Source: Nitrospirota bacterium (GTDB lineage: Bacteria > Nitrospirota > Nitrospiria > Nitrospirales > UBA8639). Taken from it: 50,800 nt of DNA. The position numbers and the translations under genes were made by a program. The stretch covers positions 1 through 50,800 of the forward strand of contig JAOTTP010000012.1 in the NCBI GenBank assembly GCA_029864405.1. The letters are read 5' to 3'. The number at the start of each line of letters is the position of its first letter. The stretch's first letter is position 1. The notes under the pieces are model-generated. The model was not told where the DNA came from. It saw nothing but the letters and a program-made list of their open reading frames with translations, and did not search any database. This document shows positions 3,415 through 21,823 of the stretch, piece by piece.

Positions 3415-4110
3415 TCACCCCGCTGTTCCAAAGAGCGCTCCGACCCCTGCGGTCAGTCCCATGGCCAGTGCACCCCATAGCGTGACGCGCATGGCGCCCG
3501 TCATCATAGGGGCACCGCCCACGCGCGCCGCTAACCCTCCTAACAACGTGAGAGACACCAGTGATGTTCCGGAAACCACAGGAATCAGGTTGGCCTCCGG
3601 AACGATGGTCGCTGTCAAAAGAGGCATGGCGGCTCCGACAGCGAAACTGCCCGCTGAGGCCAGTGCAGCTTGAATCGGACGGGCACGGAGATTTTCGGAA
3701 ATTCCGAGTTCGTCGCGGGCATGCGCGCCTATGGCGTCATGAGCCATGAGTTGTCCGGCGACCTGTTTCGCAAGCGGAGGATCAAGGCCTCGTTCCACAT
3801 ACAGCCCTGCGAGTTCCTTGTGCTCACCTGAAGGGTCGGATATGAGTTCCGTGCGCTCAAGCGCAAGGTCGGCCTCTTCGGTGTCTGCTTGTGATTGGAC
3901 AGACACATATTCACCGGCAGCCATCGACATCGCCCCCGCGACCAGACCGGCCACTCCTGCGACCAATACCTCGCTATAGGTCGCACCTGCCGCCGAGACA
4001 CCGAGCAGCAGGCTCGCGGTCGAAATGATCCCGTCGTTGGCGCCCAATACCGTCGCCCGCAGCCAGCCGATGCGTTCTGTGCGGTGTCGTTCCCTATGTC
4101 TTATAAACAT
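3415..4110 (-). CDS. VIT1/CCC1-family transporter (ferritin-like metal exporter)
   Basis: A 231-residue membrane protein of the VIT1/CCC1 family, which moves Fe2+ or Mn2+ out of the cytoplasm in exchange for H+. The N-terminal signature GWLRATVLGANDGIIST and a following GxxAGAxSMAAGEYVSVxSQ segment are diagnostic. Five hydrophobic segments are visible, with an acidic cytoplasmic stretch (EEADLALERTELISD) between TM2 and TM3. The frame is open to 4179, but the ATG at 4110 has an AGGAAAG ribosome site 8-9 bases upstream and gives the usual family N-terminus, so that start is used. It follows ppk2 by 123 bp on the same strand and could be the last gene of the N-ATPase transcript; this is not certain. 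Confidence 0.85.
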   Translation of the reverse strand: MFIRHRERHRTERIGWLRATVLGANDGIISTASLLLGVSAAGATYSEVLVAGVAGLVAGAMSMAAGEYVSVQSQADTEEADLALERTELISDPSGEHKELAGLYVERGLDPPLAKQVAGQLMAHDAIGAHARDELGISENLRARPIQAALASAGSFAVGAAMPLLTATIVPEANLIPVVSGTSLVSLTLLGGLAARVGGAPMMTGAMRVTLWGALAMGLTAGVGALFGTAG

Positions 4111-4233
4111 GTTTGATGCTTTCCTAATGGGCATCCACCCACCAATGCCACATCGCTTCCCGCAGTTCGTTCGGTACACGGAAAGAGAACCCGAATGCCT
4201 ATAGGCTTTCTTTTCACTCTTAAGCTTCCGATC

Positions 4234-5103
4234 TTACTTCGCAAGACGTTTTCGAATCGACTGCAACTCTTTCCGGCGCGCCTTGGTCGGCTGAGGGTAA
4301 CTCATGTTGAGACTTTTTAACATCTCTTGGATCACATGCGAAATGATGAGCCTGGCGTTTTTTTTGTCATCGGCCGGCACGACATACCAGGGAGCGCTTT
4401 CTGTGCTTGTGGCACTCAAACAGGCCTCATAGGCCTGCATGTACTGTTTCCAATACTTTCGTTCCTCGATGTCGGCGAGGCTGAATTTCCAGTTTTTCTC
4501 CGGTTCATCAATGCGTGCAATGAAGCGCTTCCGTTGCTCTTCCTCTGAAAGATGAAGGAAAAACTTCATGATCCGCGTTCCGTTGCGGAAGAGATGGCTC
4601 TCCAGGTCCACGATGGAGCGGTACCGCTCTTGCCAAATAGTGTTTTCATCAAGCAACTCGTTCGGCAGCCCCTGGCTGTGCAGTATCTCCGGGTGCACTC
4701 GAACGATCAGCACTTCCTCGTAATAGGAGCGATTGAAAATGCCGATCCGGCCACGTTCAGGAAGAGACCGCGTGGTGCGCCACAGAAAATCGTGGTCCAG
4801 TTCCGCGGCGCTGGGATGTGTGAAGCTGAACACCTGGCAGCCTTGTGGATTGACACCGGACATCACGTGTCGGATGGCGCCGTCCTTGCCGGCGGCGTCC
4901 ATCGCCTGGAAAATCAGCAGCAACGCATAGCGGTTGTCCGCGTAGTGGAGGCGTTGCAACGAACTGAGTTCCTCAACATGTTCGTTGAGACACTTCTTGT
5001 ATTGTTTTTTTGATGTGTAGAGGGCCTTCACCCTGGTTGGCCATTTGTTGAGATCGACCGTTGCGCCTTCCGAAACCCGGAAATCGTTGGACTGAATGTT
5101 CAT
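4234..5103 (-). CDS. ppk2: Polyphosphate kinase 2 family protein
   Basis: About 289 residues, a one-domain PPK2 that transfers phosphate between polyphosphate and (d)NDP or NMP. The Walker A-like loop is AMDAAGKDG (about 67-75) and the Walker B region is [14 protein letters not shown] (about 119-132). Both are hallmark PPK2 motifs, as is the lid-region Arg cluster in between. The frame extends upstream to 5223 inside atpG, but the ATG at 5103 gives the normal family N-terminus and leaves 13 bp to the atpG stop. It is therefore very probably co-transcribed with the N-ATPase. Whether it prefers AMP, ADP or GDP (class I, II or III) is not clear from the sequence. Adjacency to an ATP-consuming ion pump suggests ATP supply from polyphosphate (inference). 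Confidence 0.9.
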
Positions 5104-5116
5104 GGTTGTTCTAATT

Positions 5117-6049
5117 TCATGATTCGATGTGGGGTTTGCCTGCATGGCATTCCGTGGCGTCTGGTTTTTTGGCCAATGCCTCAAAACCGGAGATGACGTC
5201 GAACAGCTCCTCGTCGATGCCACTTTGGCGCAACTGGTGAAAGTGTTTATTGAGGTCCTCCAGCAGTTCGTCGATGTTTTTTTCGGCGCGTTGCATCGCC
5301 GTCAGGCGGCTGGCGTTTTCGCTGGCCAGAGACTCGGCGCATGCACGGAAGAGCGAGACGAAGAGATACTCGTGGATGAGCGCCCGCAGAGTTGCGGTAC
5401 TACTGCCAAGAACTTCCGGCAAATTCTCTGTCGGCCAGGGGAGTGTGGCCAATTCGCTACGCCAGCGTTCGTCTAGCGGAAGGAGGCGCTGCTTGACGGG
5501 CGTATACACGGCTCTCGAGGTGGGGCGGTTATAGTAGAGGTGAAGTTCGGTGATCTCCCCCTGGCTGCGGCGCGTTTCGCTTTCCAGGAGAATTTGACCG
5601 ACGAGCGGAGTGATGGCCTTGACGGAATTCGGGACGGGAAAAAATCCTAGCAGGGACAGGCCCGCGTCTGCCAGGCGCGTCTGCACGCGCTCACCGACGG
5701 CCCATACCCGGTGTTGGCCGGGCAGCGCGGCCAGGGTCTTGACCGCATAATCGGCTATCACTTCATTAAACTGGCCGACCAGTCCCTGGTCTGAACCGAA
5801 CACGACCGCCCCAATCGCTCCTGCAGGTGTGTGCCTCTTCTGTTCGCCCATGAGGGCCATCGGCGAGTCATCCCGGAAACAGACGCTTAATCCCAGCTCC
5901 ACGGTGCGAGAATAATCGGCCAATGCGCTCACCGATTGCTCGTATTGTCCAATGCTCGAGGCGGCCAAGGCTTTCATCGTGCGCACGACGGATTGCAGGT
6001 CCCCGGCTCCGCCGATCTTTCGGCGCAGACCCACCATCGTGTCGCTCAT
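5117..6049 (-). CDS. atpG: N-ATPase gamma subunit
   Basis: 310 residues, the rotor shaft of F1-type ATPases. The N-terminal [20 protein letters not shown] helix and the C-terminal [19 protein letters not shown] helix form the coiled coil; the central part is the Rossmann-like domain. Its ATG overlaps the TGA of the upstream hibernation-factor gene (ATGA), implying coupled translation. In ordinary N-ATPase operons atpG directly follows atpA. Here about 1.75 kb, holding a baeRF-type gene, an hpf-like gene and a truncated atpG start, intervenes. The frame itself is complete, so a functional gamma subunit is expected. Confidence 0.9.
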
Positions 6050-6417
6050 GACTCCTCCGGAAGTTCCGCCCCAGGTGGGGGAGGGTCAGTCCTGTGCCTC
6101 TTTTCATCGCGCAGTTGCCCGAGGGTGCTCTCGATCATTCTAGTCAACTTGTCTGCAGCGCCGTCTACGGCTTGGTCCACGTTCGCAGCCTGATGCGTGA
6201 CCGCGACGGGCTGGCGGCCTTCAAGGCGGGCTTCCATCACGCAACGCATGTTGTCATTGCCGCCCTTCTTGTCGCTATTCTCATCGCTCAGATGGACCTC
6301 TACTCGCGTGATGGAATCGCTGAATCGGCTCAGGGCACTCTCCACGACGCCACTGACCTGAGCGGCCAATGCCTCGTGGCCTTCAATGTTACGGTCAGTA
6401 TTGATTTGGACCTGCAC
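6046..6417 (-). CDS. HPF/RaiA-family ribosome hibernation factor (short form), GTG start
   Basis: 123 residues with the beta-alpha-beta-beta-beta-alpha pattern of the RaiA/HPF fold. Signature pieces include the RVEVHLSDENS strand, a VMEARLEGRQPVAVTHQA strand pair and a final helix (DQAVDGAADKLTRMIESTLG). Such proteins bind the 30S decoding and mRNA channel and silence ribosomes in stress. The frame is open further upstream, but a GTG at 6417 preceded by AAAGGAG at 6 bp is the clear start. The tail is Pro/Glu-rich. It lies 28 bp after the baeRF-type gene and overlaps atpG by 4 bp. A second hibernation-type gene, fused to a cold-shock domain, is at 27556. Confidence 0.8.
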   Translation of the reverse strand: MQVQINTDRNIEGHEALAAQVSGVVESALSRFSDSITRVEVHLSDENSDKKGGNDNMRCVMEARLEGRQPVAVTHQAANVDQAVDGAADKLTRMIESTLGQLRDEKRHRTDPPPPGAELPEES

Positions 6418-6445
6418 GGTATTCTCCTTTGTGAGTGTGGATGGT

Positions 6446-7609
6446 TCAATGCCGGTAGGTGGCAGCCAGTCCCGTCCGTCCCGGCATACGCTCGGCCGGA
6501 ATGACCAGGACCCGGCCGCCCATCTTTTCGACGAGTTCGCCCAGGTCGTCGAGGAGGTCACCGACTTGCGGGTGGCTCAGGTCTGCAACCTCGGTCCGAC
6601 CCGTCGCGCCGTCGAGTCGCCCGGCAATCTGGCGGTCGGCCTCGATCAGCAGCGTGGCGACACGCCCGGTGGCGGCCGCCTGTGCAACCTGCGTCAAGTC
6701 GTCACTGCCAAGCCCCTTGGATTTTGCCACTGCAAACTCGTCGGCCAATGTAGCCAGCTGCGCCTGATATTGCGGGTCGACAACCTGCCAGGCGCGTTTC
6801 CGCAGTTCATCGATCGGCAGGGCATCGGGATTGATTGTGAGTCCCTCCGCCATTAAAAACGGGTTGTGGCTGACCTCGTGGAAACGATGATGATGCTCCG
6901 GCAACGCCGCCAGGATCAGCGGCAGGCCCGATGGCCGGGAATAGTGCTCTAACACCGCGCGGTCGACGGCGCGGAAGAACCGGTCCGCGTCGATGTCGAC
7001 CTCGGCCTGTTTCCCACCGTGACCGTGGTGCATAGGTGTGCTTGCTCCGCCGACTCCGCCGTAGGAGGCGACGGTTGAATGGGGTTCGGTCAGCTCATCC
7101 CCCAGCGCCTCGGTGATCGTCCGTGGAACGTCCGGAGCCAGATCGATCTCGTCAAGCGCCTGGCGGTTCCCCTCGAAGAGCCGGATCGTGTGGAGGCTCA
7201 ATCCCAGAACCTGGTAGCGATCGACTGTTTGCAGAAAACGCCGCAAGGGCTTGGTGTGAAAGCTGTCGGCCACGACGACCAATTCCGCGACCGGCCGCTG
7301 AAGCTGGAACACATGAAACAAGCCCGGCCCGCCCAGCACGGCCAGTCCATCGAGTGTGTGCGTCCAGAAGTCATGATCGTGGGCGAGGGTTTCGAACGGT
7401 TCCAGAAGGAGCCGGGTTTCGAGGGCTGGATACTTTTGTCGGAGCGATGTCTCCAGCTCCTTGACAAGGTTGCGAAACCGGATCGGGTCCTGCTGATTCT
7501 CGGGATGGTGCCGATGGGTCGGCTGATAAAGCGAGAGACATGGCTGCTGGTGATCAGATACCAACGCGGCTATGAATTCGCTCGTGAGCAAAGTTTTCTT
7601 CTGTGTCAT
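6446..7609 (-). CDS. Bacterial archaeo-eukaryotic release factor homologue (baeRF3-like)
   Basis: A 387-residue protein resembling the baeRF families, bacterial relatives of the eRF1/Vms1 peptidyl-tRNA hydrolase domain. The N-terminal part has the typical LYxPTHRHHPENQQDPIRF segment. A glycine-rich loop GHGGKQ (residues 196-201) sits just before a helix (DADRFFRAVDRAV), exactly where eRF1 has its GGQ loop. The C-terminal third is an eL30-like alpha/beta domain ending GRVLVIPAERMPG. The start at 7609 has AGAGGAGG 5-7 bases upstream; an in-frame ATG 24 bp earlier lacks this. It is the first gene of a two-gene insert in the N-ATPase operon. A ribosome-rescue or tRNA-release role is inference; some baeRF proteins are annotated only as host attachment protein. 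Confidence 0.75.
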   Translation of the reverse strand: MTQKKTLLTSEFIAALVSDHQQPCLSLYQPTHRHHPENQQDPIRFRNLVKELETSLRQKYPALETRLLLEPFETLAHDHDFWTHTLDGLAVLGGPGLFHVFQLQRPVAELVVVADSFHTKPLRRFLQTVDRYQVLGLSLHTIRLFEGNRQALDEIDLAPDVPRTITEALGDELTEPHSTVASYGGVGGASTPMHHGHGGKQAEVDIDADRFFRAVDRAVLEHYSRPSGLPLILAALPEHHHRFHEVSHNPFLMAEGLTINPDALPIDELRKRAWQVVDPQYQAQLATLADEFAVAKSKGLGSDDLTQVAQAAATGRVATLLIEADRQIAGRLDGATGRTEVADLSHPQVGDLLDDLGELVEKMGGRVLVIPAERMPGRTGLAATYRH

Positions 7610-7670
7610 TCGTGCCTCCTCTTTTGTATTCAATCACTGTGAAACTTCAATGAAACCTTAAGAAAATGGC

Positions 7671-7808
7671 TTAAACAGTCGCTTTTTCGCTCGTATGAAG
7701 TGACTTTTTGTCACTTGAGGCGGCCAGGGCCTTCATCGTGCGAACGACGGATTGGAGATCTCCGGCTCCGCCGATCTTTCGGCGCTGGCTGGCCATGGTG
7801 TCGCTCAT
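7671..7808 (-). pseudogene. Truncated second copy of the atpG 5' end
   Basis: Directly after atpA, sharing an ATGA overlap exactly as atpG would in a standard operon, is a 45-codon frame beginning [18 protein letters not shown] and continuing [13 protein letters not shown]. From codon 9 to 32 it is identical in protein to the true atpG start at 6049. The DNA differs at several third positions (for example GGA/GGG, GAT/GAC, CTC/CTG, GTT/GTG, TCA/TCG). After codon 32 the sequence departs, and it ends at a TAA. The break point lies at a 19-bp hairpin (7698-7716). The synonymous-only divergence means it was inherited from a functional but diverged atpG, not copied recently. Confidence 0.85.
7698..7716. 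other. Perfect 7-bp inverted repeat with 5-nt loop at the atpG breakpoint
   Basis: AAGTGAC-TTTTT-GTCACTT sits at the point where the truncated atpG copy stops resembling atpG. On the transcribed strand the loop is AAAAA and no U-run follows, so it is not a standard intrinsic terminator. It may be a transcript-processing hairpin or a scar of the rearrangement. Confidence 0.6.
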
Positions 7809-9448
7809 GACTCCTCCTTCAGTGCCGCCTTGGGCTTGGGTCTGATCTCCGCTTGGTCCTCCGGCTTGGACTCGGGTTCAGGCTTGGGCTTGGCTTTGCC
7901 CTCGGGTTTGGATTCCGGCTTTGGTTGGAAACGTGCGAGCGATTTGCGGGCGATTTCGATAATCGTTTGACGATCCTCTTCATTCAGTTTGGCTGCGGCT
8001 TCCAATCGTTTGCACACCTCCAACGGGATGTCCAGAGCCGCCTTGTGTAGGGCTTGTTCGGCGTTCGTCATCTGCTCAAGCGGTACAGGGTCGAAGAGTT
8101 TTTCGGTTAACGCCAGGAGCAAGGTGATTTGAGCGGGCACGGAGACCGGGGCGAATTCCGGCTGCTTGAGACAGGCGCGGATTCGCCGCCCGTGTTCGAT
8201 AATCTTGCGGGTATCCTCATCCAGCCTGGCGCCGAACCTGGCGAAGGTTTCCAGCTCCTCAAACTGTGCATAGGCCAGCTTAAGATCACCCGCCACGGCG
8301 CGGTAGGCCGCTCGTTGTGCTTTGCCCCCCACGCGGGACACAGATCGCCCCACATCGACCGCAGGCAGCACCCCTAATTCGAACAGGGAAGGCGAAAGGT
8401 AGATCTGCCCATCCGTGATGGAAATCAGATTGGTCGGAATGTAGGCGGAAATGTTTTGTGCTTCGGTTTCGATAATGGGCAGCGCCGTCAGCGAGCCGCC
8501 ACCGAGTTCCTTGCGCAGGTGTGTGGCGCGCTCCAGAAGCCGTGAGTGGATATAAAAGATGTCGCCGGGAAACGCTTCCCTACCTGGCGGCCGGCGCAAA
8601 AGCAGGGACAGCTCACGATAGGCGCGAGCGTGATGGGTCAGGTCGTCATAGACAATCAGGACATCGCGTCCCTGGTTCATGAAATGCTCCGCAATGCTGG
8701 TCGCCGCGTATGGCGCGATATAGGCAAGACCCGGCGGGTCGTTGCCTTCGGTCACGACGACGATAGTGTACTCCATCGCGCCTTGTTCGCGGAGGGTGGC
8801 CACGACTTTCGCGACGCCGGACGCGCGCTGACCGATGGCGCAATACACGCACAGGACATTCTGATCCCGCTGGTTGAGAATGGTGTCGAGGGCAATGGCG
8901 GTCTTGCCTGTCTGCCGGTCTCCAAGAATCAACTCACGTTGGCCGCGCCCGATGGGAATGAGCGCATCGATGACCTTGATGCCGGTTTGCAACGGCACCG
9001 TGACGGGTGCACGATTCATGATGGGCGGTGCTGGACGTTCGATAGGCAGGCGCTCGCTGGAGGCCACCGGTCCGTGGCCATCCAGGGTCCGACCTAATGG
9101 ATTGATGACTCTCCCGATCAAGCCGTCGCCTACCGGCACGTCCATGACGTGTCCCCTGCGCTCGACTTCGTCACCTGCCTGTAACTGCCAGTAGTCGCCA
9201 AGGAGCACGACGCCGATTTCGTCTTCATCGACGTTGAAGGCGATGCCGTACACCTCACCGGGAAATTTCAGCACCTCCTCAAACCCCACGCGGGGAAGGC
9301 CGGAAACCCTGGCGATCCCGGTGGAGACGTTCGTGACCCTGCCCACCTCGCGGGGCGTCAGCTGAGGCGAGAAGCTTTCGCGCGCCTGGCTTATTCCAGA
9401 AAACGCACGGTCGAAAACCTTCTGGAGACTCTCAGGTTCCATGTTCAT
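7805..9448 (-). CDS. atpA: N-ATPase alpha subunit
   Basis: About 547 residues, the non-catalytic nucleotide-binding subunit of F1. The P-loop GDRQTGKT is at about residues 176-183, followed by the alpha-type block [20 protein letters not shown] and the conserved INAE-like SRVGGKAQ stretch. The last ~40 residues form an unusual Lys-Pro-Glu-rich tail (repeats of KPE/PKPE). The start is uncertain: ATGs at 9448 and 9442 both overlap the end of atpF, and a further in-frame ATG occurs at 9478; none has a strong ribosome site. The stop overlaps the start of the truncated atpG copy. It belongs to the N-ATPase operon on the minus strand. Confidence 0.93.
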
Positions 9449-10250
9449 TGGCTGGTTGTTCGGGAGGTGCGTCGGCATTGGCTTCAGGTTTGGCTTTTTC
9501 TTTCAGGAGTTCGCCGACGTCCTTTTCCAGCGACACGAGATAATCCGCGATGCTCCACGCCACTTTTTGTCCATTTGTGGTGAGTTCGATTCCGCTGACC
9601 AGGTCCGGCGCGGGCTCGAACCGGACGTGGATTTCAGCCGAGAACGTTTCGTTGAGGGCATGTTGTATCGCCGCGCGTTGCTCCGCAGGCAGGTCGAACG
9701 CGCTGCGCACAATCGCGGGGTCAGACGCGGTTTTCAGAGCCTCGGCGAGTCCTTCTTTCGCCTGGCCGTCCATTTCTCGCAAGCGGCGAATGAACACCTC
9801 GCCCAGGCGTTCTTCCAGGCTCGTCGTGGCGAGGTCCGCCAATGTCTTTCGCGCAATCGCAAAAATTTCCTCCCGTGTTCGACGAGTGAGTTCTTTATTC
9901 AGGCTTTGGTGCTCGCTTCTCAATGCTTCCTGCCACTTGGTACGCAAGGTGTCCGACTCCTTCCGCGCCTCGTCGAGGAGCCGCTGACGCTCGGCCGTTG
10001 CCTCGTCCTCGGCTTTCTTCAACAGAGCCGCGCGCTGCTGGTCGAACTCCTCATTCTTGCGCGTGAACTCGTCACGTTCCTGTCCGGCTTCGGTCTTTTT
10101 TGCGTCGGCGTCTGCCAGTTCGGTGGCGATCCGTTTCTCCCTCGCGTCGAGAGCATTGAGGATTGGCTTGTACAGGAAGCGCTTCAACAACCATACGAGG
10201 ATGAGAAAGTTGAGTGCCTGCGCAATAACGGTAAACCAGTCGATGAGCAT
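9432..10250 (-). CDS. atpF: N-ATPase b subunit with delta-like C-terminal region
   Basis: 272 residues, longer than ordinary b subunits. One N-terminal membrane segment (residues 3-22, [20 protein letters not shown]) is followed by a long charged coiled coil (about 30-150) and a C-terminal part containing an F-type delta-like pattern ([15 protein letters not shown]-type segment around 205-225). N-ATPase operons have no separate atpH, and this extended subunit is thought to take over the stator role. An Ala/Pro/Glu-rich tail precedes the stop. The gene lies 4 bp after atpE and overlaps atpA. Confidence 0.9.
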
Positions 10251-10254
10251 CGTC

Positions 10255-10536
10255 TTACTTTCCTGTTGCCTGGGCGAGGACGTGGTTCCAGAACGGGTTG
10301 GCGAAGATCAGAATCATCGAAACCACGAAACAGTAAATGGCCGTGGACTCGATCATCGCCAGGCCCACAAACAGCGTTCGGGTGATCGTGTTTGAGGCAT
10401 CGGGCTGCTGGGCGAGCGAAGTCAAGGCTGTTGAAACCGCCCTTCCTTCCCCCAGCGCCGGTCCGATTGTGCCCACCCCGGTGGTCAAGCCGGCCGTGAC
10501 AATTGATGCCACCGCGATGAGAGTCATGCTGTCCAT
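10255..10536 (-). CDS. atpE: N-ATPase c subunit (rotor ring)
   Basis: A 93-residue two-helix hairpin. Helix 1 carries GPALGEGRA, with a second carboxylate at E30. Helix 2 carries the ion-binding MIESTAIY, with E63, S64, T65 and Y68, matching the E65/S66/T67/Y70 Na+ ligand pattern of the Ilyobacter c ring; the Q32 equivalent is E30. The ATG at 10536 has GGAG 6-7 bases upstream, and upstream in-frame codons lack a ribosome site. Two-carboxylate N-type rings are known, including a large H+-specific c17 ring from Burkholderia, so Na+ versus H+ specificity is open. Confidence 0.93.
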   Translation of the reverse strand: MDSMTLIAVASIVTAGLTTGVGTIGPALGEGRAVSTALTSLAQQPDASNTITRTLFVGLAMIESTAIYCFVVSMILIFANPFWNHVLAQATGK

Positions 10537-10567
10537 AGTGTCTCCTTTGGTTGTTGTGATGTATGCG

Positions 10568-11263
10568 TCAAGGTGCTGACCCGGATTCCGGTTCATGCTG
10601 GCGGGTTCGTGTCGCGGCCGCAATGTATACCGTGGCCAGGATGCTGAAGATATAGGCTTGCACCATCCCGGTGAGCAGACCGAGCAGGCTCATGACGATC
10701 GGGAAGATGAAGGGCGTGATGGTCAGCAGAATGCCGACAATCATGGCCCCGCTCATCATGTTGCCGAACAAGCGGACGGCCAGGGCCAGCGTGCGGGAGA
10801 TTTCGCTGATAACGTTAAACGGCAACATGATGATGGTCGGTTTCAGGTAGGACTTGAGATACCCGCCGACTCCTTGCTCCTCGATGCCGAAGAGCGGTAC
10901 GGCGACAAACACACACAGCGCGAGTGCCACCGTGGTCGAGAGGGAGCCTGTCGGGGGCTCGTAACCGGGAATGATCGTACAGAGGCTGGCTGTGGCGACG
11001 AACAGGAAGATCGTCCCCAGGAAGCTGAGATACTTGTGCGGATGACTCAGGCCCACCTCTTCAATTTGTTTCTCGATGGCGGTGACGACGATTTCCAGAA
11101 GATTCTGCCAGCGAGAACGTTTCAGGCCAGCGGAAAGGTGGCGCGTAATGGCTGTTGATCCGATGGTCAACAACAGCATCAATCCCCATGTGACGACAAT
11201 CGTGGCATTCAGCTTGATGAACCCGTATTGCCAGAAAATAATTTCGTCCGGGCTAAGGCGCAT
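10568..11263 (-). CDS. atpB: N-ATPase a subunit
   Basis: 231 residues, the stator ion channel. Five to six membrane helices are visible; the conserved essential arginine lies in the helix SRTLALAVRLFGNMMSG and the last helix contains GMVQAYIFSILATVYI with the conserved Gln. The start ATG at 11263 has AGAGGAGG about 6 bases upstream and overlaps atpR by 11 bp. The gene is followed by atpE 31 bp later. Confidence 0.93.
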   Translation of the reverse strand: MRLSPDEIIFWQYGFIKLNATIVVTWGLMLLLTIGSTAITRHLSAGLKRSRWQNLLEIVVTAIEKQIEEVGLSHPHKYLSFLGTIFLFVATASLCTIIPGYEPPTGSLSTTVALALCVFVAVPLFGIEEQGVGGYLKSYLKPTIIMLPFNVISEISRTLALAVRLFGNMMSGAMIVGILLTITPFIFPIVMSLLGLLTGMVQAYIFSILATVYIAAATRTRQHEPESGSAP

Positions 11264-11564
11264 GGCCGGCCTCCTCTGCCAGGCGGGTTGGCTTTTCGGC
11301 TACGCGTGTGAGTCGTGTCACGATTACACGCGCAATGGTAAATCCCAAGAGGCACATGAGCAGCTTCTCCCACTGGCCGCCCGAGAACACATAGAAACCA
11401 GCCAGGGTCATGCTTGTTCGCAGCAGCAGGCTGCCGAAGAACCAAATCGCCGGCCGTGTGGACGACACGCCTTTTTGAACCGTCCACCACAGGCCTCCGA
11501 AAAACATCGCTCCGAGCAACATGCCCGCTACCAGCGCAGGCACCATCATGAAGATTTCATTCAT
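11253..11564 (-). CDS. atpR: N-ATPase accessory membrane protein AtpR
   Basis: 103 residues with three hydrophobic segments (about 5-25, 40-60 and 68-85). A conserved arginine lies inside the second (FGSLLLRTSMT). This is the AtpR (N-ATPase AtpR family) protein found only in N-ATPase operons, between atpQ and atpB as here. Its membrane arginine has been proposed to interact with the c ring carboxylates during assembly (inference from the family). It overlaps both neighbours by 8-12 bp, a sign of tight coupling. Confidence 0.85.
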   Translation of the reverse strand: MNEIFMMVPALVAGMLLGAMFFGGLWWTVQKGVSSTRPAIWFFGSLLLRTSMTLAGFYVFSGGQWEKLLMCLLGFTIARVIVTRLTRVAEKPTRLAEEAGHAP

Positions 11565-11895
11565 CGTGATTCTCCTGTTCCGCTCGTATTTCCTGGTCTT
11601 CCTTAGTCACCCAATGCCACGCATTCACACAGCCGATGATCAGGCCGATGAAGAGCAGTGTGAGCGTCCATGAATGCGGTCCGGGATAGTGTTTGTCCAG
11701 CCAGAGACCGAGCGCCGCGCCCAGTAGCGTTGGAATCGTAACCGACCAGCCGATCAGCCCCATCATCCCCAACCCAAACCAGATGGTCCGTGTCGTGTGA
11801 CGTTGCGCCTTGAGTTTGCGCGCGGCTTTCGTGCCGACCTGCCTGGCTAGGGGCGTCTCTTCCCTGAGTGGCTTCTCTTCCGGGTCCTCAGTCAT
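11557..11895 (-). CDS. atpQ: N-ATPase accessory membrane protein AtpQ (AtpI-like)
   Basis: About 112 residues. A charged N-terminus is followed by two membrane helices (GMMGLIGWSVTIPTLLGAALG and LTLLFIGLIIGCVNAWHWV) with the GxxLGxWLD turn typical of AtpI/Q proteins, which help assemble the c ring or move Mg2+. The ATG at 11895 overlaps the atpC stop by 8 bp. The frame stays open to a TTG at 11922, which is less likely. Its position after atpC and before atpR is the N-ATPase hallmark. Confidence 0.85.
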   Translation of the reverse strand: MTEDPEEKPLREETPLARQVGTKAARKLKAQRHTTRTIWFGLGMMGLIGWSVTIPTLLGAALGLWLDKHYPGPHSWTLTLLFIGLIIGCVNAWHWVTKEDQEIRAEQENHDE

Positions 11896-12292
11896 GGCGA
11901 AAATCCGCGAAGCGGCGCACAAAGCTACTTTCCAGCTTGGCCATCACCGAGCGGAGGCTTTGCTCGTGTTCGTCCAGAGTCAGAAATTCATCTTCCACCG
12001 CCTCGCGCAATTGACGGAGGTCGGTTCCGGCAATGGCGTTGCGCACGGAGACCAGCACCTCCTGGCCGCTTTTGACCAGTACTCCTTCATCGAGTGCCAC
12101 GTACATCTCATCATCCCCGTTGCTTTCGTAGATCAGAATCCCTGGCTCGAGTGCCGCCACGCAGTCAAGCCGTTGAGGCAAGAGGCCAAACGCCCCCTCG
12201 CGGGTTTCCGCGACGATACGGGTCACCGCTTTCTGCACGGCGAAGATCCTGAACGGGAGAAGAATTTTCAGGGTCATGAGCGTCGGCTGCAT
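11888..12292 (-). CDS. atpC: N-ATPase epsilon subunit
   Basis: About 134 residues with the N-terminal beta-sandwich pattern of F1 epsilon (LKILLPFRIFA, then REGAFGLLPQRLDCVAALEPGI split by turns, and VALDEGVLVKSGQEVLVSV). A charged C-terminal helical part follows. The ATG at 12292 is supported by GGAGG 7 bases upstream; a TTG two codons earlier is too close to that site. Placement directly after atpD is normal. Confidence 0.9.
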   Translation of the reverse strand: MQPTLMTLKILLPFRIFAVQKAVTRIVAETREGAFGLLPQRLDCVAALEPGILIYESNGDDEMYVALDEGVLVKSGQEVLVSVRNAIAGTDLRQLREAVEDEFLTLDEHEQSLRSVMAKLESSFVRRFADFRHD

Positions 12293-12329
12293 GTTCAACC
12301 TCCGGTTGCGGTTTCGACGGCGGCTTCGA

Positions 12330-13841
<1,512 letters not shown>

Positions 13842-13931
13842 TCAGGGTGTGGGTTGAGCAGTCGTGCTTCAGTGAGGGATCCGGTCTTGTGCTTATTTTC
13901 GTGGATGAGGTGTCCGATACCATATTCCTCA

Positions 13932-13961
13932 ATTCAACCCCTTACCGTTCATATGAGTCAA
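13932..13961 (-). promoter_or_regulatory. Possible sigma70-type promoter of the N-ATPase operon
   Basis: On the minus strand a TTGACT (13961-13956) is followed 18 bases later by TTGAAT (13937-13932), about 125 bp before the atpD start, in the 214-bp gap between the antiporter gene and atpD. The -35 is good, but the -10 matches only four of six consensus bases. No other strong candidate was seen. Confidence 0.25.
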
Positions 13962-14022
13962 TGTCTCCAAGAAAAACAGAGTGTCCGTCTGTATGGACCG
14001 TCTGAGTATTCACCTCTGATAT

Positions 14023-15213
14023 TCAAGTCTGGATTTCATTGTGAGTCTGACCTTCGCCGGCCTTGATAAGGGCTTTTCTGGTCATGACCGGTCCAATGAG
14101 TTCGAAGACGATCGTGGATCCAATGGCAACCGGAAGAATCACTTCCTTGAGTTCGGGTAGGTGTTGGCTGGCCAGAAGCGCCATTCCCAACGCAACTCCG
14201 GCCTGTGGCCAGAGCGCCATGCCCATCCAGCGCCGTATGACGGGAGACGCCCCGCTGAGGATCCCTCCTCCCCATGCTCCAATCACCCGACCGATGAGTC
14301 GTAACAGGATATAGGCAACACCGAGCAGACTGGTTGCCCGCAAGGCATTCAGATCCAATGAGGCGCCGGCTAAGATAAAAAAGAGAATCATGAATGGCCA
14401 TTCAATGCCTTCAATGGCGGTGAACGGACGTCGGTGGTGAGCGGCGAAATTAGCGACCGTGGCTCCTAAGACCATGCACGCCAAGATAAAGGACACATTT
14501 AAGAAGACGGCGATTCCCCCACACAAAAGTACTAGCCCTAGCGCTTCGGCTTGCGTGGGCTCCCCTTGTTTGATTCGTCCGGTCAAATAAGCCATGGGGA
14601 TACCGAGAACAAGGCCCAGCAGCATGGCTCCGCCAATTTCCCATCCCCCCAATAGGAGCATGTCCCAACCGGTTTCTTGTCCATAAAGCGTTTGGGCCAT
14701 GGCTAAGAGAACACTAAAGATCATGAGGCCCCAAACGTCGTCAATGGCCACGATATTCTCCAGCGTACTGGAAAATTCCCCTTTTGCCCGTATTTCACGG
14801 ATGACGTCTATCGTGGCGGCAGGGTCGGTTGCGAGGGAAATGCCAGCCAGGACAAGCGCAATGTCGGGACGAATGCCCAAGAGTAGGAGTCCAATGAACA
14901 CAGTCATGGCCGTTGCCAGGACCGCCCCAATCGAAATCCAAAGGACGATTTTCCCATGTCGTTGAAGTGACGAACGGGTCATGTGATGACCCAACAAAAA
15001 TCCCACCATGGATAAGGCGATATTGGTGACAACCGGAAACCATTCTTCCTGGAAATCCGGCAAAAGATTGAGTCCCGATGGACCAATGGCAAATCCGGTC
15101 AAGAGTAGCAAGGTGACTCTTGGTAAAAACGTTCGGCGTCCCAACAGGTCGGTGAACAGTCCCAACAGAAATAGGGTCCCAAGTGTAATCAGTATTTTGG
15201 AAATTTCGTCCAT
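14023..15213 (-). CDS. CPA2-family Na+/H+ antiporter
   Basis: About 396 residues and 11-12 membrane helices of the cation:proton antiporter-2 type. The ion-site helix holds the paired aspartates IVAIDDVWG, the double-Asp motif typical of electrogenic NapA/NhaA-like exchangers. The unwound-helix motif SLATDPAATIDV is also present. No TrkA-N regulatory domain follows. The ATG at 15213 is chosen; the frame is open to TTG codons at 15228 and 15231. It lies just upstream of, and in the same direction as, the N-ATPase, a sensible partnership for Na+ homeostasis: the exchanger uses H+ entry, the ATPase uses ATP. Confidence 0.85.
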   Translation of the reverse strand: MDEISKILITLGTLFLLGLFTDLLGRRTFLPRVTLLLLTGFAIGPSGLNLLPDFQEEWFPVVTNIALSMVGFLLGHHMTRSSLQRHGKIVLWISIGAVLATAMTVFIGLLLLGIRPDIALVLAGISLATDPAATIDVIREIRAKGEFSSTLENIVAIDDVWGLMIFSVLLAMAQTLYGQETGWDMLLLGGWEIGGAMLLGLVLGIPMAYLTGRIKQGEPTQAEALGLVLLCGGIAVFLNVSFILACMVLGATVANFAAHHRRPFTAIEGIEWPFMILFFILAGASLDLNALRATSLLGVAYILLRLIGRVIGAWGGGILSGASPVIRRWMGMALWPQAGVALGMALLASQHLPELKEVILPVAIGSTIVFELIGPVMTRKALIKAGEGQTHNEIQT

Positions 15214-15672: not shown

Positions 15673-16239
15673 TCACATGCGTGCACCGGATGATGGTTTG
15701 CGACGTGTCTTTTTCGTATCCGATTTGACGGGCTTGGGGGTTGCCTCAATATCCGTAAAGGGCTGCAACTTATGATACGGATAGGGGACGCAGAGCACCG
15801 GACATGTCACGGTGCGAACCACTTTTTCGGCGGTACTGCCAAAAAAGATCCGGGTAATATCGCCCGTTTGTCCTCCATAACTCCCCATGACCACGAGGTC
15901 GACGTGTTCTGTTCGTGTCATACGGGCAATTTCCACAAAGGGTTTCCCTTCGCTGAGTAAGCGCGTGATCTTAATCCCCTTGGCTTCCGGCAAGGCCAAG
16001 AGGCCCCGTGCTAGGTGACGGGCATGGTGGTGTAAGCGTTTTTTTTGGGCTTTCTCCTCAGAAGGGAGCGCGAGCCCGAGAGCATTCAAGGCATCCAGGG
16101 TTTTGGTGTCGATGACATGAAGGAGAATCACCTGTGATTGAAAACTCCTGGCCAGACGAAGACCAACCAGGAACGCCTCTCGTGAGCTTGGAGAGAAATC
16201 GACGGGTATCAGAATTTTTTGAAACAGATCGTCACTCAT
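15673..16239 (-). CDS. Universal stress protein (UspA family), single domain with basic tail
   Basis: 188 residues. One Usp domain (about 6-150) starts with the ILIPVDFSPSS strand and ends with the ATP-binding signature GSYGGQTGD followed nine residues on by GS, then VTCPVLCVP. A Lys/Arg-rich tail of about 35 residues follows. ATP-binding Usps act in the cytoplasm as stress sensors; partners are unknown. It is divergent from the two-domain Usp gene at 16646. Confidence 0.88.
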   Translation of the reverse strand: MSDDLFQKILIPVDFSPSSREAFLVGLRLARSFQSQVILLHVIDTKTLDALNALGLALPSEEKAQKKRLHHHARHLARGLLALPEAKGIKITRLLSEGKPFVEIARMTRTEHVDLVVMGSYGGQTGDITRIFFGSTAEKVVRTVTCPVLCVPYPYHKLQPFTDIEATPKPVKSDTKKTRRKPSSGARM

Positions 16240-16645
16240 GTTGTTGACCTCGTTGTGTGTTTGTCATAGCGTAGATCATTACGATCATGCCTAAGAGAAC
16301 TCAGCAAAGAAAATGCCAGATAATGATGTTTTCCCTAAGATCCTAGCTGGACGAAGGGATGGAGTAGGCAAAACGTGGGAAAGAAAAAATTTAGGATAGG
16401 GTTCTCGTGAAAAAAGAGGAAAAAAGCGACACTGCCATGAAGGCGAATAGTTCCAAAAAAGGGCATTCTGGCATTGAGTGGGCGGTCCTATTTTTCCCCA
16501 CTTGCCGGATTCCAAGATTCTGGCCAAAAAATACTGTCTGAAAAGAGCTGCCACCTGGCAGGATTTGTGCGAAGAGAAGTGTGTATGGAGAGAAAGAGTT
16601 CGTGAATTGGAGCGGTCCTATGACCGAGATTGAGGAGATGAGACG
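16240..16645. other. Divergent intergenic region between two usp genes
   Basis: A 406-bp AT-richer spacer between genes read in opposite directions, so promoters for both are expected here. No clear operator or repeat was recognised. Open frames on the minus strand across it have no family features. Confidence 0.45.
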
Positions 16646-17554
16646 ATGAAAATTTTGTGTGCGGTTGATGGGTCGGAGTTTTCTCTCTGGGCACTTGAAT
16701 GTGTGGGGAAATTGTTTCGCCATTCGGTAAAAGAGTTGGTCTTGCTGCATGTGGTTGATCCACGGATATTGAGAGGCGGTGGGGGGAAGCGGCCCAAAAA
16801 AGATGAGCCATTTACTAAAGATATTTCCAGAAAGCTGGAGACAGCGGGTCAGAAGGTTTTGACGGATTGTGCGCACCGGATGGAAGTGGTGTTAAGCCAA
16901 GCCACCACCAAGCCGTTTGCGGAGATGAAGACTGCGTTGGTGAAAGGCCATGCGGCCGATGCCATTATTTCCTATGCCGAGCGAACCCGACCTGATTTGG
17001 TGGTGGTGGGATCACGCGGCATGAATGATCTCCCTGGATACCTGCTTGGGAGTATTTCGAGGACGGTTCTGACCCACGGCCCCTGCTCGGTCTTGACGGT
17101 CAAGGGTCCACTCGACGTGCCGGTATCCGTCTTACTGGCCTTGGATGGGTCCAAGCCATCAAAGTTTGCGGCAAACCGGGTGAAAGAATGGCTGTCTCCT
17201 GAAGAGGTGACGCTTCAACTGGTGTCGGTTGTGCCCGATATCTTGACGGATGCGTCCAAGAAGATGTTCCCGAAATCGCGATTGAAGGCCCTGGTGGCTC
17301 CCCTTCGGCAGCATGCCCAGGAATGCCTTGAGCAATATCGAGAATTGTTTTTAAAGGAAGGGTTTCAAGTGATCGGAAAACGCCTTCAGGGGAATCCCCG
17401 AGAGAAAATCGTCGAGTCGGTTCCAACCTGTCACGCGCAATTGGTGGTCATGGGATCCAAGGGGCTCACCGGTGTGGAACGGTTTACGATGGGGAGTGTG
17501 TCGGAATGGGTGAGTGCGTACGCGCCTTCCTCCGTACTGGTCGTCCGGCATTAA
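16646..17554 (+). CDS. Tandem-domain universal stress protein
   Basis: 302 residues made of two Usp domains. Domain 1 (about 1-150) has KILCAVDGSEFS and the nucleotide signature GSRGMNDLPGYLLGSIS. Domain 2 (about 155-302) has VLLALDGSKPS and GSKGLTGVERFTMGSVS. Both keep the G-x2-G-x9-GS ATP-binding pattern. The start has GAGGAGA upstream. It is one of three Usp genes in 15.6-22.8 kb, interspersed with CBS-domain genes and PPi-phosphofructokinase, suggesting an energy-stress neighbourhood. Confidence 0.9.
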   Translation: MKILCAVDGSEFSLWALECVGKLFRHSVKELVLLHVVDPRILRGGGGKRPKKDEPFTKDISRKLETAGQKVLTDCAHRMEVVLSQATTKPFAEMKTALVKGHAADAIISYAERTRPDLVVVGSRGMNDLPGYLLGSISRTVLTHGPCSVLTVKGPLDVPVSVLLALDGSKPSKFAANRVKEWLSPEEVTLQLVSVVPDILTDASKKMFPKSRLKALVAPLRQHAQECLEQYRELFLKEGFQVIGKRLQGNPREKIVESVPTCHAQLVVMGSKGLTGVERFTMGSVSEWVSAYAPSSVLVVRH

Positions 17555-17687
17555 CAAAAATTGGAGGGATGTCGAACGCCCTGGTCTGCCTTCAGGGATG
17601 ACCTATGGTTGAAGATTGGACTTTACACGACAAAAAGGAGGGGTATAGTTGAACACAGGAAGGACAGGACGATCGCAGGTGAAGTCT

Positions 17688-17852
17688 ATGAAAACAAGCG
17701 TGGCGTGGGTCGGACGGCTGCTGGGATTCGTTTTGATCGGAGGGCTGCTGTCCACGGGAGCCTATGGGGACCATCTGGATGTTCCCGCTGATCTCGCAGG
17801 CACCTCTCCAGACTGTCATGGGAGATTCCTTGGAAAGCAGGTTCCCTGGTAG
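17688..17852 (+). pseudogene. Signal-peptide end of an amber-interrupted pentapeptide-repeat gene
   Basis: An ATG at 17688, preceded by AGGTGA, opens 54 codons. They encode a clear signal peptide (KTSVAWVGRLLGFVLIGG, cleavage after AYG) and a short mature start ending KQVPW, then TAG at 17850. The very next codons (SLNQVLAAHARWL) are in the same frame and form the usual lead-in of the pentapeptide protein at 17865. A single base substitution creating TAG is the simplest explanation. The secretion signal is thereby separated from the repeat domain. Confidence 0.8.
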
Positions 17853-17864
17853 TCCCTCAACCAG

Positions 17865-18965
17865 GTGTTAGCCGCCCATGCCCGATGGCTCCACGATCAT
17901 CAAGATCCGAAAGGGGTGCAGGCCGATTTGTGTGGAGCCGATCTGGCCGAAGTTGATTTTCGGGAAGAAGATTTGAGTGGCGCCAACTTTCAAGGGGCCA
18001 ACCTGACTCGTGCCGCGTTTGCCGGCGCCAAGTTAGTCCATGCCAACTTTCATAAAGCGAATCTCACCGAAGCTTCTTTCTACTCGGTTGATCTGCGTGG
18101 TGCCAATGTCTCTGGTGCGAGGGCCCGTTTGGCGGATTTTCGAAAAGCCGATTTGACCCAGGCCAATTTCACAGGAGCCGATCTGCGAGAAGCGAATCTC
18201 GCCGAGTCCCGTTTCCGCTTAGGCGTCTTGCGGGGAGCCGATTTAGAGGAAGCCTATCTGGTCAGGGCGGATTTCGAAATGGCCAATTTGGCGGAAGCCT
18301 CCCTTATTCGAGCGGATGGCCGAGAAGCGAATTTTCAACGAGCCTTACTCGTCAATGCCAAACTGATCGAAGCGGATCTCAACCGAAGCGACCTGCAAGA
18401 AGCTGATCTTCGTTCGGCTGATTTGTCCGGGGCCGATTTGGGGTTAGCCAATCTGAATGAGGCCGTGCTGACGCATGCCAATCTCCGTGAAGCGAATTTG
18501 GACAGGGCCGTGCTGTTTCAAGCCAATCTCGAAGGAGCCAATTGCGCCGGCGGGAGCTTTCAAAATGCGGATTTGCTCGAGGCGAATTTAACGAACAGCA
18601 ATCTCTTACGGGCGACACTGGATGAAGCCTATCTCGCGAAGGCGAATTTACAGGGGGCCAATCTGGAAGGCGCGGATGTCTCCTGGGCGAACCTGGTTGA
18701 AGCCGATCTTTCAAATAGCAATCTGGAATTTGCCGTGATGTTCCGAACGAACCTTCAAGAGGCGAAACTCGATGGGGCGAAGTTGTATGGGGCCGATCTT
18801 CGGGGAGCCAATGTCGAACACGCCTCTTTCCGTGGAACTCGTTTGCAAGGGGTGGCCATCCGGTATGCTCACGGATGGAAACAGGAACAACTCAATCAGG
18901 CGTGCGTTGATGCACGAACCCGGTTGCCGGATGGATTGGTGGGACCATCACCATGTCTGCGCTGA
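17865..18965 (+). CDS. Pentapeptide-repeat protein body (interrupted from its signal peptide by TAG)
   Basis: About 366 codons, nearly all pentapeptide repeats of the A(D/N)LxX type (roughly 60 units from residue 19 to 320). These fold as a right-handed quadrilateral beta-helix, often a protein-protein scaffold. A C-terminal YAHGWKQEQLNQACVDART-type cap, common in this family, closes it. The GTG at 17865 lacks a ribosome site, and the frame continues upstream through a single TAG into a signal-peptide segment starting at 17688. The intact ancestor was therefore a secreted or periplasmic protein of about 425 residues. As the sequence stands it is likely not translated efficiently, unless TAG is misread or is a sequencing error. 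Confidence 0.75.
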   Translation: MLAAHARWLHDHQDPKGVQADLCGADLAEVDFREEDLSGANFQGANLTRAAFAGAKLVHANFHKANLTEASFYSVDLRGANVSGARARLADFRKADLTQANFTGADLREANLAESRFRLGVLRGADLEEAYLVRADFEMANLAEASLIRADGREANFQRALLVNAKLIEADLNRSDLQEADLRSADLSGADLGLANLNEAVLTHANLREANLDRAVLFQANLEGANCAGGSFQNADLLEANLTNSNLLRATLDEAYLAKANLQGANLEGADVSWANLVEADLSNSNLEFAVMFRTNLQEAKLDGAKLYGADLRGANVEHASFRGTRLQGVAIRYAHGWKQEQLNQACVDARTRLPDGLVGPSPCLR

Positions 18966-19030
18966 GCGCCCAACATACTACTTCGCAATGGGGTTTAGGG
19001 ATTTCAAGAACCAGGCTCAACATCTCATTC

Positions 19031-19255
19031 AGGGGCTGTTGAATATTTCAAATCTTTGCCCTCTTTATTCACATATGAGTGACTCGGACCTACCGGAAGA
19101 AAATAAGGGAGTGTTCAAAAATGCCTGTCCAGTCCTGCCCTGAGTCATGCCGAAGGGAAGGCCGCAGCCACTTTGGCGGGCGGAGCGTACGGAGGAGTAC
19201 GTGAGCACGGCCAAGTGGCGAGAACGCCGCTGGCGGCATTTTTCAGCACTCCCAC
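19031..19255. repeat. Composite dispersed repeat (GCTGTTGAA ... CGCCGCTGGCGGCATTTTTCA)
   Basis: The left edge reads GCTGTTGAA; the interior contains GAAGGGAAGGCCGCA; the right edge reads GAACGCCGCTGGCGGCATTT. A diverged second copy with the same three landmarks and a different middle lies at about 48712-48915. Inside, CCACTTTGGCG and CGGCCAAGTGG can pair across a GTAC-containing loop. I associate this type of sequence with Nitrospira genomes, but have not checked it. Confidence 0.6.
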
Positions 19256-19303
19256 TCACACGAATGTACCTTGAATCCCCACAACAAGCCCCGGAGCCCC
19301 GGA

Positions 19304-19942
19304 ATGTTCACCGTATTTGAACCAGGAGGCATGCGGTCTCCTTATGTGCCGGGCATGGTTCGGCAGAGAAACGTGGCGAAAATCTCCAAAGCGTCCGCCA
19401 TAGCTAAGGTTGGGCAGGAGGATCATCCTTCGGCTTCTCCCAAGCATGCAGCGTCATCTTCCTTGCAGGCTCGCCTGTATGAACAGGTTGAATCGTTCAC
19501 ACAATCTTCTCGAGCCAAGATTTTTGCCCGGGAAATCATGTCTTCTCCTGTTGCCACGCTTCCTGTCACGGCCTCGCTTTCCGAAGCCTGGGCTGTGGTG
19601 CATTCCAAGCGATATCGACACATTCCTATTCTCGGAGCCGATGATGCGGTGGTGGGAATATTGTCCGATCGTGATCTGTTCCGGGGAACCATGGAGTCAG
19701 TTCTGTCAGGGACAACATGGTCCACCAAAGAGGTCGAGGCTCCCATCCGGAACCTGTTCAGTCACCCGGTCTTGGTTGCGTCCCCGGAGGCGGAGCTTCG
19801 TGCCATTGCGAGGGTGTTGTTGGAGGAACGAATTGGCGCCTTGCCGATTGTGTCTGAAGTCGAGGGCTTAGTGGGCATGATCACCAGAAGTGATATTCTA
19901 CGTGTCCTGGTCGCCCATCCCGACTTTGATCAGTGGGTATAA
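19304..19942 (+). CDS. Two-CBS-domain protein
   Basis: About 212 residues. An unstructured N-terminal ~70 residues precede two CBS domains: one from AREIMSSPVATLPVTAS to VVGILSDRDLF, the second from LFSHPVLVASPEAELR to GLVGMITRSDIL. CBS pairs bind adenine nucleotides and sense energy charge. The ATG at 19304 has CGGAG about 7 bases upstream; the frame also allows a TTG at 19271. No catalytic domain is attached, so it probably regulates a partner in trans. Confidence 0.85.
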   Translation: MFTVFEPGGMRSPYVPGMVRQRNVAKISKASAIAKVGQEDHPSASPKHAASSSLQARLYEQVESFTQSSRAKIFAREIMSSPVATLPVTASLSEAWAVVHSKRYRHIPILGADDAVVGILSDRDLFRGTMESVLSGTTWSTKEVEAPIRNLFSHPVLVASPEAELRAIARVLLEERIGALPIVSEVEGLVGMITRSDILRVLVAHPDFDQWV

Positions 19943-20024
19943 AAGAAAGAGGTTTTTGGGCCAATGGTGAAGAAGGGAAGAAGCTCCTTTCTCATCGAAG
20001 AAACCGAGTTGAAGGAGGAAACGT

Positions 20025-20378
20025 ATGCTCGAACAGGGAGAGAAACTCTTAATCGTTCATCGCCGACTATTTGAAAAAGATATCCCACGATTTTTTGTGG
20101 GAGAGGTGCTGGCCTATGAACAGGGCATAGCGAAGGTCAAAGGGTATACGTTTGTCAAAGATCTGTTTAGCGGAAGCATGAAGAAGAAGCCCGATCTTCG
20201 TACAAAGGTTATGGCTATCGTCTCAGGGGCCCTCATCGTGTATCAATTGCCGGTGACCGCGCTCTTGGATTCGATGAGATTTACTCTGGATCAAGACGGA
20301 GGGTTGGTGTTAACGGATGATGGAGGATTTTCGATGGATGTGTCGGAATCCCTGCATAAACACGAAACGGATCAGTAG
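20025..20378 (+). CDS. Conserved-looking hypothetical protein, 117 aa
   Basis: Not recognised. A strong ribosome site (AAGGAGGAAA) precedes the ATG, and codon use matches neighbours, so the gene is credible. It is soluble, begins with an amphipathic segment (EKLLIVHRRLFEKDIPRFFVG split) and reads like an SH3- or PilZ-like small beta-rich protein (VGEVLAYEQGIAKVKGYTFV), followed by a ~20-residue hydrophobic beta segment (VMAIVSGALIVYQLP). It lies 82 bp after the CBS gene on the same strand and may be co-transcribed with it. Confidence 0.7.
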   Translation: MLEQGEKLLIVHRRLFEKDIPRFFVGEVLAYEQGIAKVKGYTFVKDLFSGSMKKKPDLRTKVMAIVSGALIVYQLPVTALLDSMRFTLDQDGGLVLTDDGGFSMDVSESLHKHETDQ

Positions 20379-20505
20379 CAAGACATCCTTGGGTTATTCT
20401 CTGCCAACGCACGCTTTCTTATTTCTCTTGATGCTTCTTGCCCAGGGTTTCAGTCTCGTATGGCCAATACGAAGAAAGGCATGGAGAAGAAAGTGCCGGG
20501 AACGT

Positions 20506-21762: not shown

Positions 21763-21823
21763 GGTGTGGTTTCTCGCGCTAAAGGTTAAGGATGACAATC
21801 ATAGAGAGAGGCCGTTCGAGTAA

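Follow-up and report, generated by a model that had tools for sequence, protein, structure and literature searches.

A predicted ribosome hibernation gene pair inside an N-type ATPase operon of a Nitrospirota bacterium and its recurrence in other bacteria

Why would the operon of an ATP-driven ion pump carry, between the genes for its alpha and gamma subunits, two genes whose predicted products put ribosomes to rest? The question is raised by a stretch of 50,800 nucleotides from a Nitrospirota bacterium (assembly GCA_029864405.1, contig JAOTTP010000012.1), here called the window, which is an entire contig of a genome bin that is 66% complete. On its minus strand, an N-type ATPase operon is split at the atpA-atpG junction by a short atpG fragment, a baeRF gene and an hpf gene, and it is followed by the polyphosphate kinase gene ppk2. 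The favoured answer, which is held to be probable though far from assured, is a co-expressed energy-stress operon that unites ion pump, ribosome hibernation and polyphosphate kinase. N-type ATPases are described as ATP-driven pumps with a largely open cellular role, and Balon-type factors have varied stress neighbours; if the merger of the two is recurrent, it would tell when both are used, namely under ion or energy stress, when ATP is spent on the gradient and saved on translation.

The genes concerned are the following, in coding order.

9432..13808, minus strand: atpD, atpC, atpQ, atpR, atpB, atpE and atpF, the upstream N-ATPase genes (open reading frames and family matches)
7805..9478, minus strand: atpA, alpha subunit of the N-type ATPase (TIGR03324, 947 bits; cut-off 750.5)
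7671..7808, minus strand: 45-codon 5' fragment of atpG, a direct repeat of atpG codons 1–32 followed by an unrelated tail of 13 codons
7694..7716, minus strand: possible hairpin AAGTGAC-AAAAA-GTCACTT, just beyond the end of the atpG homology
6446..7633, minus strand: baeRF, predicted Balon-type ribosome hibernation factor (PF18845), probable start ATG at 7609
6046..6417, minus strand: hpf, short HPF/RaiA-type hibernation factor (PF02482), GTG start at 6417
5117..6049, minus strand: atpG, gamma subunit of the N-type ATPase, full length (TIGR03323, 435 bits; cut-off 282)
4234..5103, minus strand: ppk2, ADP-polyphosphate phosphotransferase (NF042973, 519.7 bits; cut-off 450; the open reading frame 4234–5223 was scanned)

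The genes thus run from atpD through atpC, Q, R, B, E, F, A, the fragment, baeRF, hpf and the full atpG to ppk2; the order from atpA onward, as given in a preliminary description of the DNA, agrees exactly with the open reading frames, the gap measurements and the family matches. ATGA overlaps join the atpA stop to the ATG of the fragment and the hpf stop to the atpG start. The fragment stop lies 61 nt before baeRF, if the latter begins MTQKK (ATG at 7609; the other start is at 7633), and gaps of 28 and 13 nt separate baeRF from hpf and atpG from ppk2. The insert is real and lies within a single run of close-set or overlapping genes. An assembly artefact was rejected because the identical order, fragment included, recurs on a 1.78-Mb contig of one congener (G013) and in a second one (G011). 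Over 10.3 kb, promoter-like sites numbered 3 (3.4 expected) and terminator-like sites 14 (10.7 expected); on the coding strand between atpA and atpG there was no promoter-like site, which says little since the sites overall are no more frequent than by chance. Positions 4000–14500 held no Rfam element over its gathering score. A plasmid-borne cassette was also considered and set aside: among 72,556 plasmid records searched at E 1e-40, one matched baeRF (33.5% identity) and 11 matched atpG, and none matched both.

The pump itself is firmly assigned. All five subunit families tested against the alternate F1F0 models (TIGR03323, 03324, 03321, 03322 and 03306) score above cut-off; atpD was outside the family scan, and the beta model TIGR03305 is thus not among them. 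F0-B, c, a and atpR are named by family, atpQ by PF09527, and atpD and atpC by position and by matches in congeners, which share the order of the upstream genes. The window keeps the D C Q R B E F A ... G order of N-type operons and differs from them at one junction: the ProAD definition, as worded in passages of PMC11738941, expects gamma directly after alpha, whereas here baeRF and hpf intervene. ProAD comprises 1,807 N-type enzymes. The operon also resembles the Nitrospirales N-ATPases of PMC12342949 in host order (congener locus L019) and in the c subunit, whose E32 and EST-Y residues, identified by eye, are those tied to Na+ binding in passages of that paper. PMC12342949 treats operons without atpR, and the word "hibernation" is absent from its main text. 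The pumped ion of the window ATPase is not certain, because the c-ring of another N-ATPase is described as proton-coupled in passages of PMC5376962.

The first inserted gene matches Pfam baeRF_family3 (PF18845) at E 8.5e-54. In the PDB, Balon alone is matched by sequence with phmmer at a threshold of E 0.01 (8rd8_B, E 1.2e-13, residues 28–391). An AlphaFold2 model built from 51 relatives (mean pLDDT 84.5; residues 177–198 of low confidence) gave 339 Foldseek matches at E up to 10, with Balon chains at ranks 1–5 (E 4e-21 to 5e-15, query TM 0.58–0.61, rmsd 6.9–8.9) and archaeal aRF1 behind them. The model for the Psychrobacter ribosome hibernation factor, NF052287, is matched by all 51 aligned relatives at E 0.001. 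Neither GGQ nor NIKS occurs in the window protein; none of the 51 relatives has NIKS, and 10 contain the string GGQ, which in 8 lies close to the C-terminus and in 2 within the loop. The protein is under purifying selection (dN/dS about 0.2 in three congeners). Sequence and modelled fold thus identify it as a predicted Balon-type ribosome hibernation factor, and of the "ribosome rescue or hibernation" proposed earlier, hibernation describes it better than rescue.

Compared with Balon itself (AOC03_06830 of Psychrobacter) and its mycobacterial homologues, the window protein has the aeRF1-like fold over nearly its whole length, and hpf/raiA is a common neighbour of baeRF genes, as passages of PMC10901736 report for Balon genes. 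It differs in being about 20% identical in the fold alignment and in scoring 172 bits against the 330-bit cut-off of NF052287, so that, judged from the model, it is predicted to work like Balon by fold and yet to stand apart from the Balon equivalog. It also differs in its place inside an N-ATPase operon; the passages of PMC10901736 name other stress genes, and "ATPase" does not occur in its main text. The gene further resembles the baeRF-1 clade (Burroughs and Aravind 2019, PMC6514570) in belonging to baeRF_family3 and having hpf adjacent, and passages of that paper predict a non-catalytic role for baeRF together with HPF. The difference is again the pump: where the listed passages of its 7 "ATPase" mentions name ATPases, others are meant (ABCE1, CDC48). 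A second, distant baeRF (about 31% identity) is present in G013 as two adjacent matches (L013/L014), possibly a broken gene.

The second inserted gene encodes a short S30AE protein with 39.7 bits against PF02482 (Pfam gathering score 23.7) and 23.9 bits, below the cut-off of 40.9, against the HPF/YfiA equivalog TIGR00741. It is close to PDB chain 7m4z_v, "ribosomal subunit interface protein" (E 4e-21), and is likewise under purifying selection (dN/dS 0.10–0.21 in three congeners). The window genome has three S30AE genes, and the cassette-free congener G018 has two, one match lying about 17 kb from its N-ATPase. Elsewhere in the window (27556–28122, plus strand), a second HPF-family gene with S30AE fused to a cold-shock domain adjoins an Ap4A phosphorylase gene (26497–27435).

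The linkage of these genes to the pump recurs both in relatives and in other groups, as the preliminary description had asked to be seen. In a search of 97 genomes, the window's own and relatives, the same baeRF subfamily (76–90% identity) was found in four others: the two congeners with the same operon, fragment included, and two members of another family (G071, G090), in which baeRF-hpf is followed directly by an atpG relic (L017 9309–9536, L018 10930–11010) outside the N-ATPase operon. The relic locus of G071 lies 2.1 kb before an uninterrupted N-ATPase operon, and G090 has an uninterrupted atpA-atpG elsewhere. Two short patterns derived from five baeRFs then retrieved 78 loci from a genome collection of 84,980 species, and in 8 of them baeRF stands between atpA and atpG (L019, which is G011, L020, L021, L024, L030, L032, L042, L085); L016 and L019 are one and the same contig and were counted once. 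From alignment A4, L090, which has a stop, and L010 were left out, and L008 is given on the other strand. Surveys of N-type atpG added G1253, from the phylum of L024 (Acidobacteria), and G1535, from the family of L032 (Competibacteraceae), with hpf alone. The window and G013 bring to 12 the genomes with baeRF, hpf or both at the atpA-atpG junction: both genes are present in 9, baeRF alone in 2 (L021 and L085) and hpf alone in 1. The 12 include Nitrospirota, Competibacteraceae, one betaproteobacterium and one acidobacterial sample. The firmest carriers are G013, L042 (209-kb contig), G1253 (89.5 kb) and Contendobacter odensis L030 (23.6 kb).

The junctions differ among carriers. Between atpA and baeRF there are about 0.9 kb of other DNA in L021 and about 0.3 kb in L024; a leader of about 60 nt before baeRF is partly shared by the window, L020, L021 and L024; and atpA runs directly into the baeRF ATG in L030, L032 and L085. 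Two further loci place the genes at other points of the operon, with the baeRF-hpf pair just before atpD in L029 and baeRF before atpC in L034. A third, L025, has baeRF directly before atpG, and it is not counted among the 12 because an abhydrolase gene lies upstream and no atpA is seen in 1.9 kb upstream; the baeRF tree shows it under an insertion label, and it is absent from the atpG tree owing to coverage.

The base rate was drawn from N-type atpG genes found independently of baeRF. Such genes exceed the cut-off in 14 of 295 Nitrospirota genomes and, at E 1e-60, occur in 12 of 369 genomes in the class of G341, 23 of 274 in the phylum of G336, 5 of 277 in the phylum of G338, 16 of 250 in the order of G344, 16 of 39 in the family of G342 and 1 of 195 in the phylum of G340. 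Without the window genome and the genomes from the baeRF scan, and with G672, present in two samples, counted once, these give 76 unseeded loci, including two undecidable ones (L150 at a contig end and L197 with no atpA upstream). In 70 of the 76, atpG begins within 150 nt of the atpA end. No gene other than baeRF or hpf was found at the alpha-gamma junction of the 76; the 684-nt spacer of L157 (797–1482, phylum of G336) holds only short reading frames and no evident gene. The insertion of baeRF/hpf into N-ATPase operons is real but uncommon.

Phylogenies bear on how often the cassette came and went. On the atpG tree with 11 carriers, 8 label changes are needed, well-supported branches force 3 of these, and the carriers as one clade are rejected (p-AU 1e-6, in a test made once the tree was known). 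The baeRF tree places the betaproteobacterial L042 with burkholderial baeRFs that have no N-ATPase nearby, and the three Competibacteraceae sequences form a separate group. Several gains make a simpler reading than one old gain and many losses; the exact number of independent gains was set aside, as the trees fit either course. G018, the congener with the empty site, pairs with carrier G011 at 100/100 in the core N-ATPase tree, and since it thereby nests among carriers, a precise loss of its cassette is likely. The cassette is flanked by the fragment and the full atpG as direct repeats, and homologous recombination between these would excise it cleanly, which we infer to be the mechanism of loss. 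Congeners with and without the cassette offer a natural comparison inside one genus, and cultivable carriers allow a direct test.

The favoured reading of these observations is as follows. An operon for an N-type, ATP-driven and predicted Na+ ATPase would have gained a two-gene hibernation cassette between alpha and gamma, with ppk2 at its end, and the cell probably produces the polyphosphate kinase and both hibernation factors along with the pump. The gamma gene overlaps hpf and not atpA, so production of a coupled pump probably goes with that of hibernation factor; we infer, more broadly, a single transcript, co-regulation and translational coupling. By analogy with Balon, the ribosomal A site is the most likely binding place of the baeRF product, and the HPF would bind the small subunit of idle ribosomes. 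The small subunit is the site of RaiA. According to passages of PMC10901736, Balon and RaiA both occupy idle ribosomes. Whenever the pump operon is on, the pair may thus silence and protect ribosomes while the polyphosphate kinase could supply nucleotide phosphate from polyphosphate. The physiological purpose may be survival when salt or energy stress sets in, by a programme in which the ion gradient is kept and the largest ATP consumer is stopped, and the recurrence in distant bacteria suggests that pump and hibernation are used together under such stress. The atpG fragment would be the footprint of the insertion, leaving direct repeats that flank the cassette and permit its precise loss.

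Several points weigh against this account. The pair or a part of it occupies only 3 of the 76 unseeded loci (G013, G1253, G1535). Either partner can be missing, as the carriers with baeRF or hpf alone illustrate, and a strict two-protein unit is hence not required. Metagenome bins account for 7 of the 8 named carriers from the pattern scan, and misbinning could have affected short contigs such as L020, L021 and L024; together with L025 these measure 3.7–19 kb, and their assignment to a phylum may be in error. Losses after one ancient gain may explain the forced label changes, and the atpG and baeRF trees of the carriers alone have no well-supported conflict. The cassette HPF is an extra copy, as the genome has two other HPF-family genes, and the baeRF score falls short of the Balon equivalog cut-off, as given above.

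A neutral explanation is the strongest rival, although we consider it rather unlikely. It holds that a freely shuffled pair of stress genes settled ahead of the operon's final gene, in a gap that tolerates insertion, where its expression is accidental and has no functional tie to the pump. The pair is indeed widely scattered: HPF lies within 300 nt of baeRF in 38 of the 78 loci, and 31 of these 38 have no N-ATPase gene on the examined stretch. The scarcity of unseeded carriers fits as well, as do the congener G018, which manages without the cassette, and the two genomes of another family, in which baeRF-hpf is accompanied by a mere atpG relic and atpA-atpG is uninterrupted. Chance settlement accounts less readily for several lineages using the same junction with different junction sequences, for the genes before atpD in L029 and atpC in L034, or for the lack of any other gene at the junction in the 76 loci, and the purifying selection on both baeRF and hpf likewise speaks against it.

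A bolder extension of the energy-stress reading would make hibernation a built-in gain-and-loss module of N-ATPase operons in several phyla, with pump on meaning translation off, and would have a truncated gamma peptide made in the Nitrospira genus, tuning pump assembly or expression of the pair; as a whole it is quite improbable.

The origin of the fragment can be treated more closely. Because it is short, it scores far below the TIGR03323 cut-off (E 2e-7). It is 86% identical to the full atpG over 93 nt, of which 13 differ. The agreement in protein over codons 9–32 with differences at third positions, claimed earlier, is exact: 8 codons differ, all of them silently, and 7 of the 8 differing bases are at third positions. 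Codons 2–8 have 1 silent and 3 residue changes. The fragments and full copies of three congeners share a genus-type start (SDTM; SDTI in one full copy), with ATG as the fifth codon (ATA in one full copy), and the other compared carriers are without it. Over the 93 nt, identities are 84–89% between fragment and full copy, 82–88% among fragments and 90–95% among full copies. Fragment and full copy are thus about as distant as fragments are from each other, so age since a local duplication suffices; together with the shared start, this leaves a diverged donor atpG unneeded, and a duplication at insertion, before the congeners parted, is a sequence-based explanation that would account for the fragment. 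Among the other carriers, the only sign of a fragment that was found is a trace of about 20 nt of an atpG start after atpA in L021, seen by eye.

Could the fragment have become a selected micro-protein, made of the gamma N-terminal helix and a new tail, that acts as a leader peptide for expression of the pair or interferes with gamma assembly? Over codons 2–31, each pair of congeners has 4 residue-changing codons, where random placement would give 6.3, 8.8 and 9.8 (P 0.08, 0.001 and 0.0002, values that are non-independent as the pairs share branches), and dN/dS is 0.12–0.26. The 7-bp hairpin after the fragment is also kept, in G013 as such and in G011 with two double changes that preserve pairs and one mismatch, yet 44 of 500 shuffles are as good. 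On the other hand, the comparison comprises just 30 codons in three genomes, sequence exchange with atpG could mimic constraint, and the same codons are better kept in the full atpG (1, 1 and 2 residue changes). The G013 fragment has moreover lost its start codon, the next ATG being codon 5, the G011 tail differs, and the other carriers have no fragment beyond the trace in L021; a selected peptide is therefore very doubtful. Strong RNA structure at the junction was a separate candidate and was set aside, the folding z-scores (−1.65, −0.96, −2.55) being weak and unconvincing.

Equally doubtful is the recombination with a diverged baeRF-hpf-atpG locus proposed in the preliminary description, which would make the downstream atpG foreign and the fragment the native start: the 13 differences in 93 nt, the occurrence in G071 and G090 of baeRF-hpf with an atpG relic away from the operon, and L025 with baeRF directly before atpG and no atpA in 1.9 kb speak for it, but the genus-type fifth codon common to both copies in three congeners, the equal distances among fragments and between fragment and full copy, and the grouping of the full window atpG with its genus at 100 weigh against it, the duplication being shared by the three congeners.

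As for novelty, the description as a "previously undescribed system" could apply at most to the linkage; for the parts it claims too much. Neighbourhoods of baeRF with HPF are published in passages of PMC6514570, and those of Balon with RaiA in passages of PMC10901736. For hibernation factors in an N-ATPase operon, no paper was found among the matches listed in the open-licence literature, which is without most subscription papers, and PMC7784846, which treats a haloalkalitolerant Nitrospira possessing an N-ATPase, does not mention hibernation.

The last gene of the operon has a wider association of its own. In 12 of 75 loci, a count that includes the window and the carriers, ppk2 lies just after the N-type atpG (window, L100, L104, L129, L130, L134, L173, L176, L179, L181, L182 and L184), and the ppk2-atpG linkage is more general than that of baeRF-hpf. 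In L030 (5078–5365), the DNA between ppk2 and an MscS-type channel gene holds a repeat of about 90 codons from the 3' end of atpG, almost identical to the atpG of L030 itself, and smaller 3' relics are near ppk2 in L016 (14276–14380) and L176 (400–477), which suggests that gain of ppk2 also leaves atpG footprints.

Adjoining the operon, positions 15673–22741 of the window hold three universal stress protein genes and genes for a CBS protein, a long pentapeptide-repeat protein and phosphofructokinase. With its universal stress proteins, CBS proteins, Trk potassium uptake and the HPF fused to a cold-shock domain, the gene content of the wider window fits a stress island.

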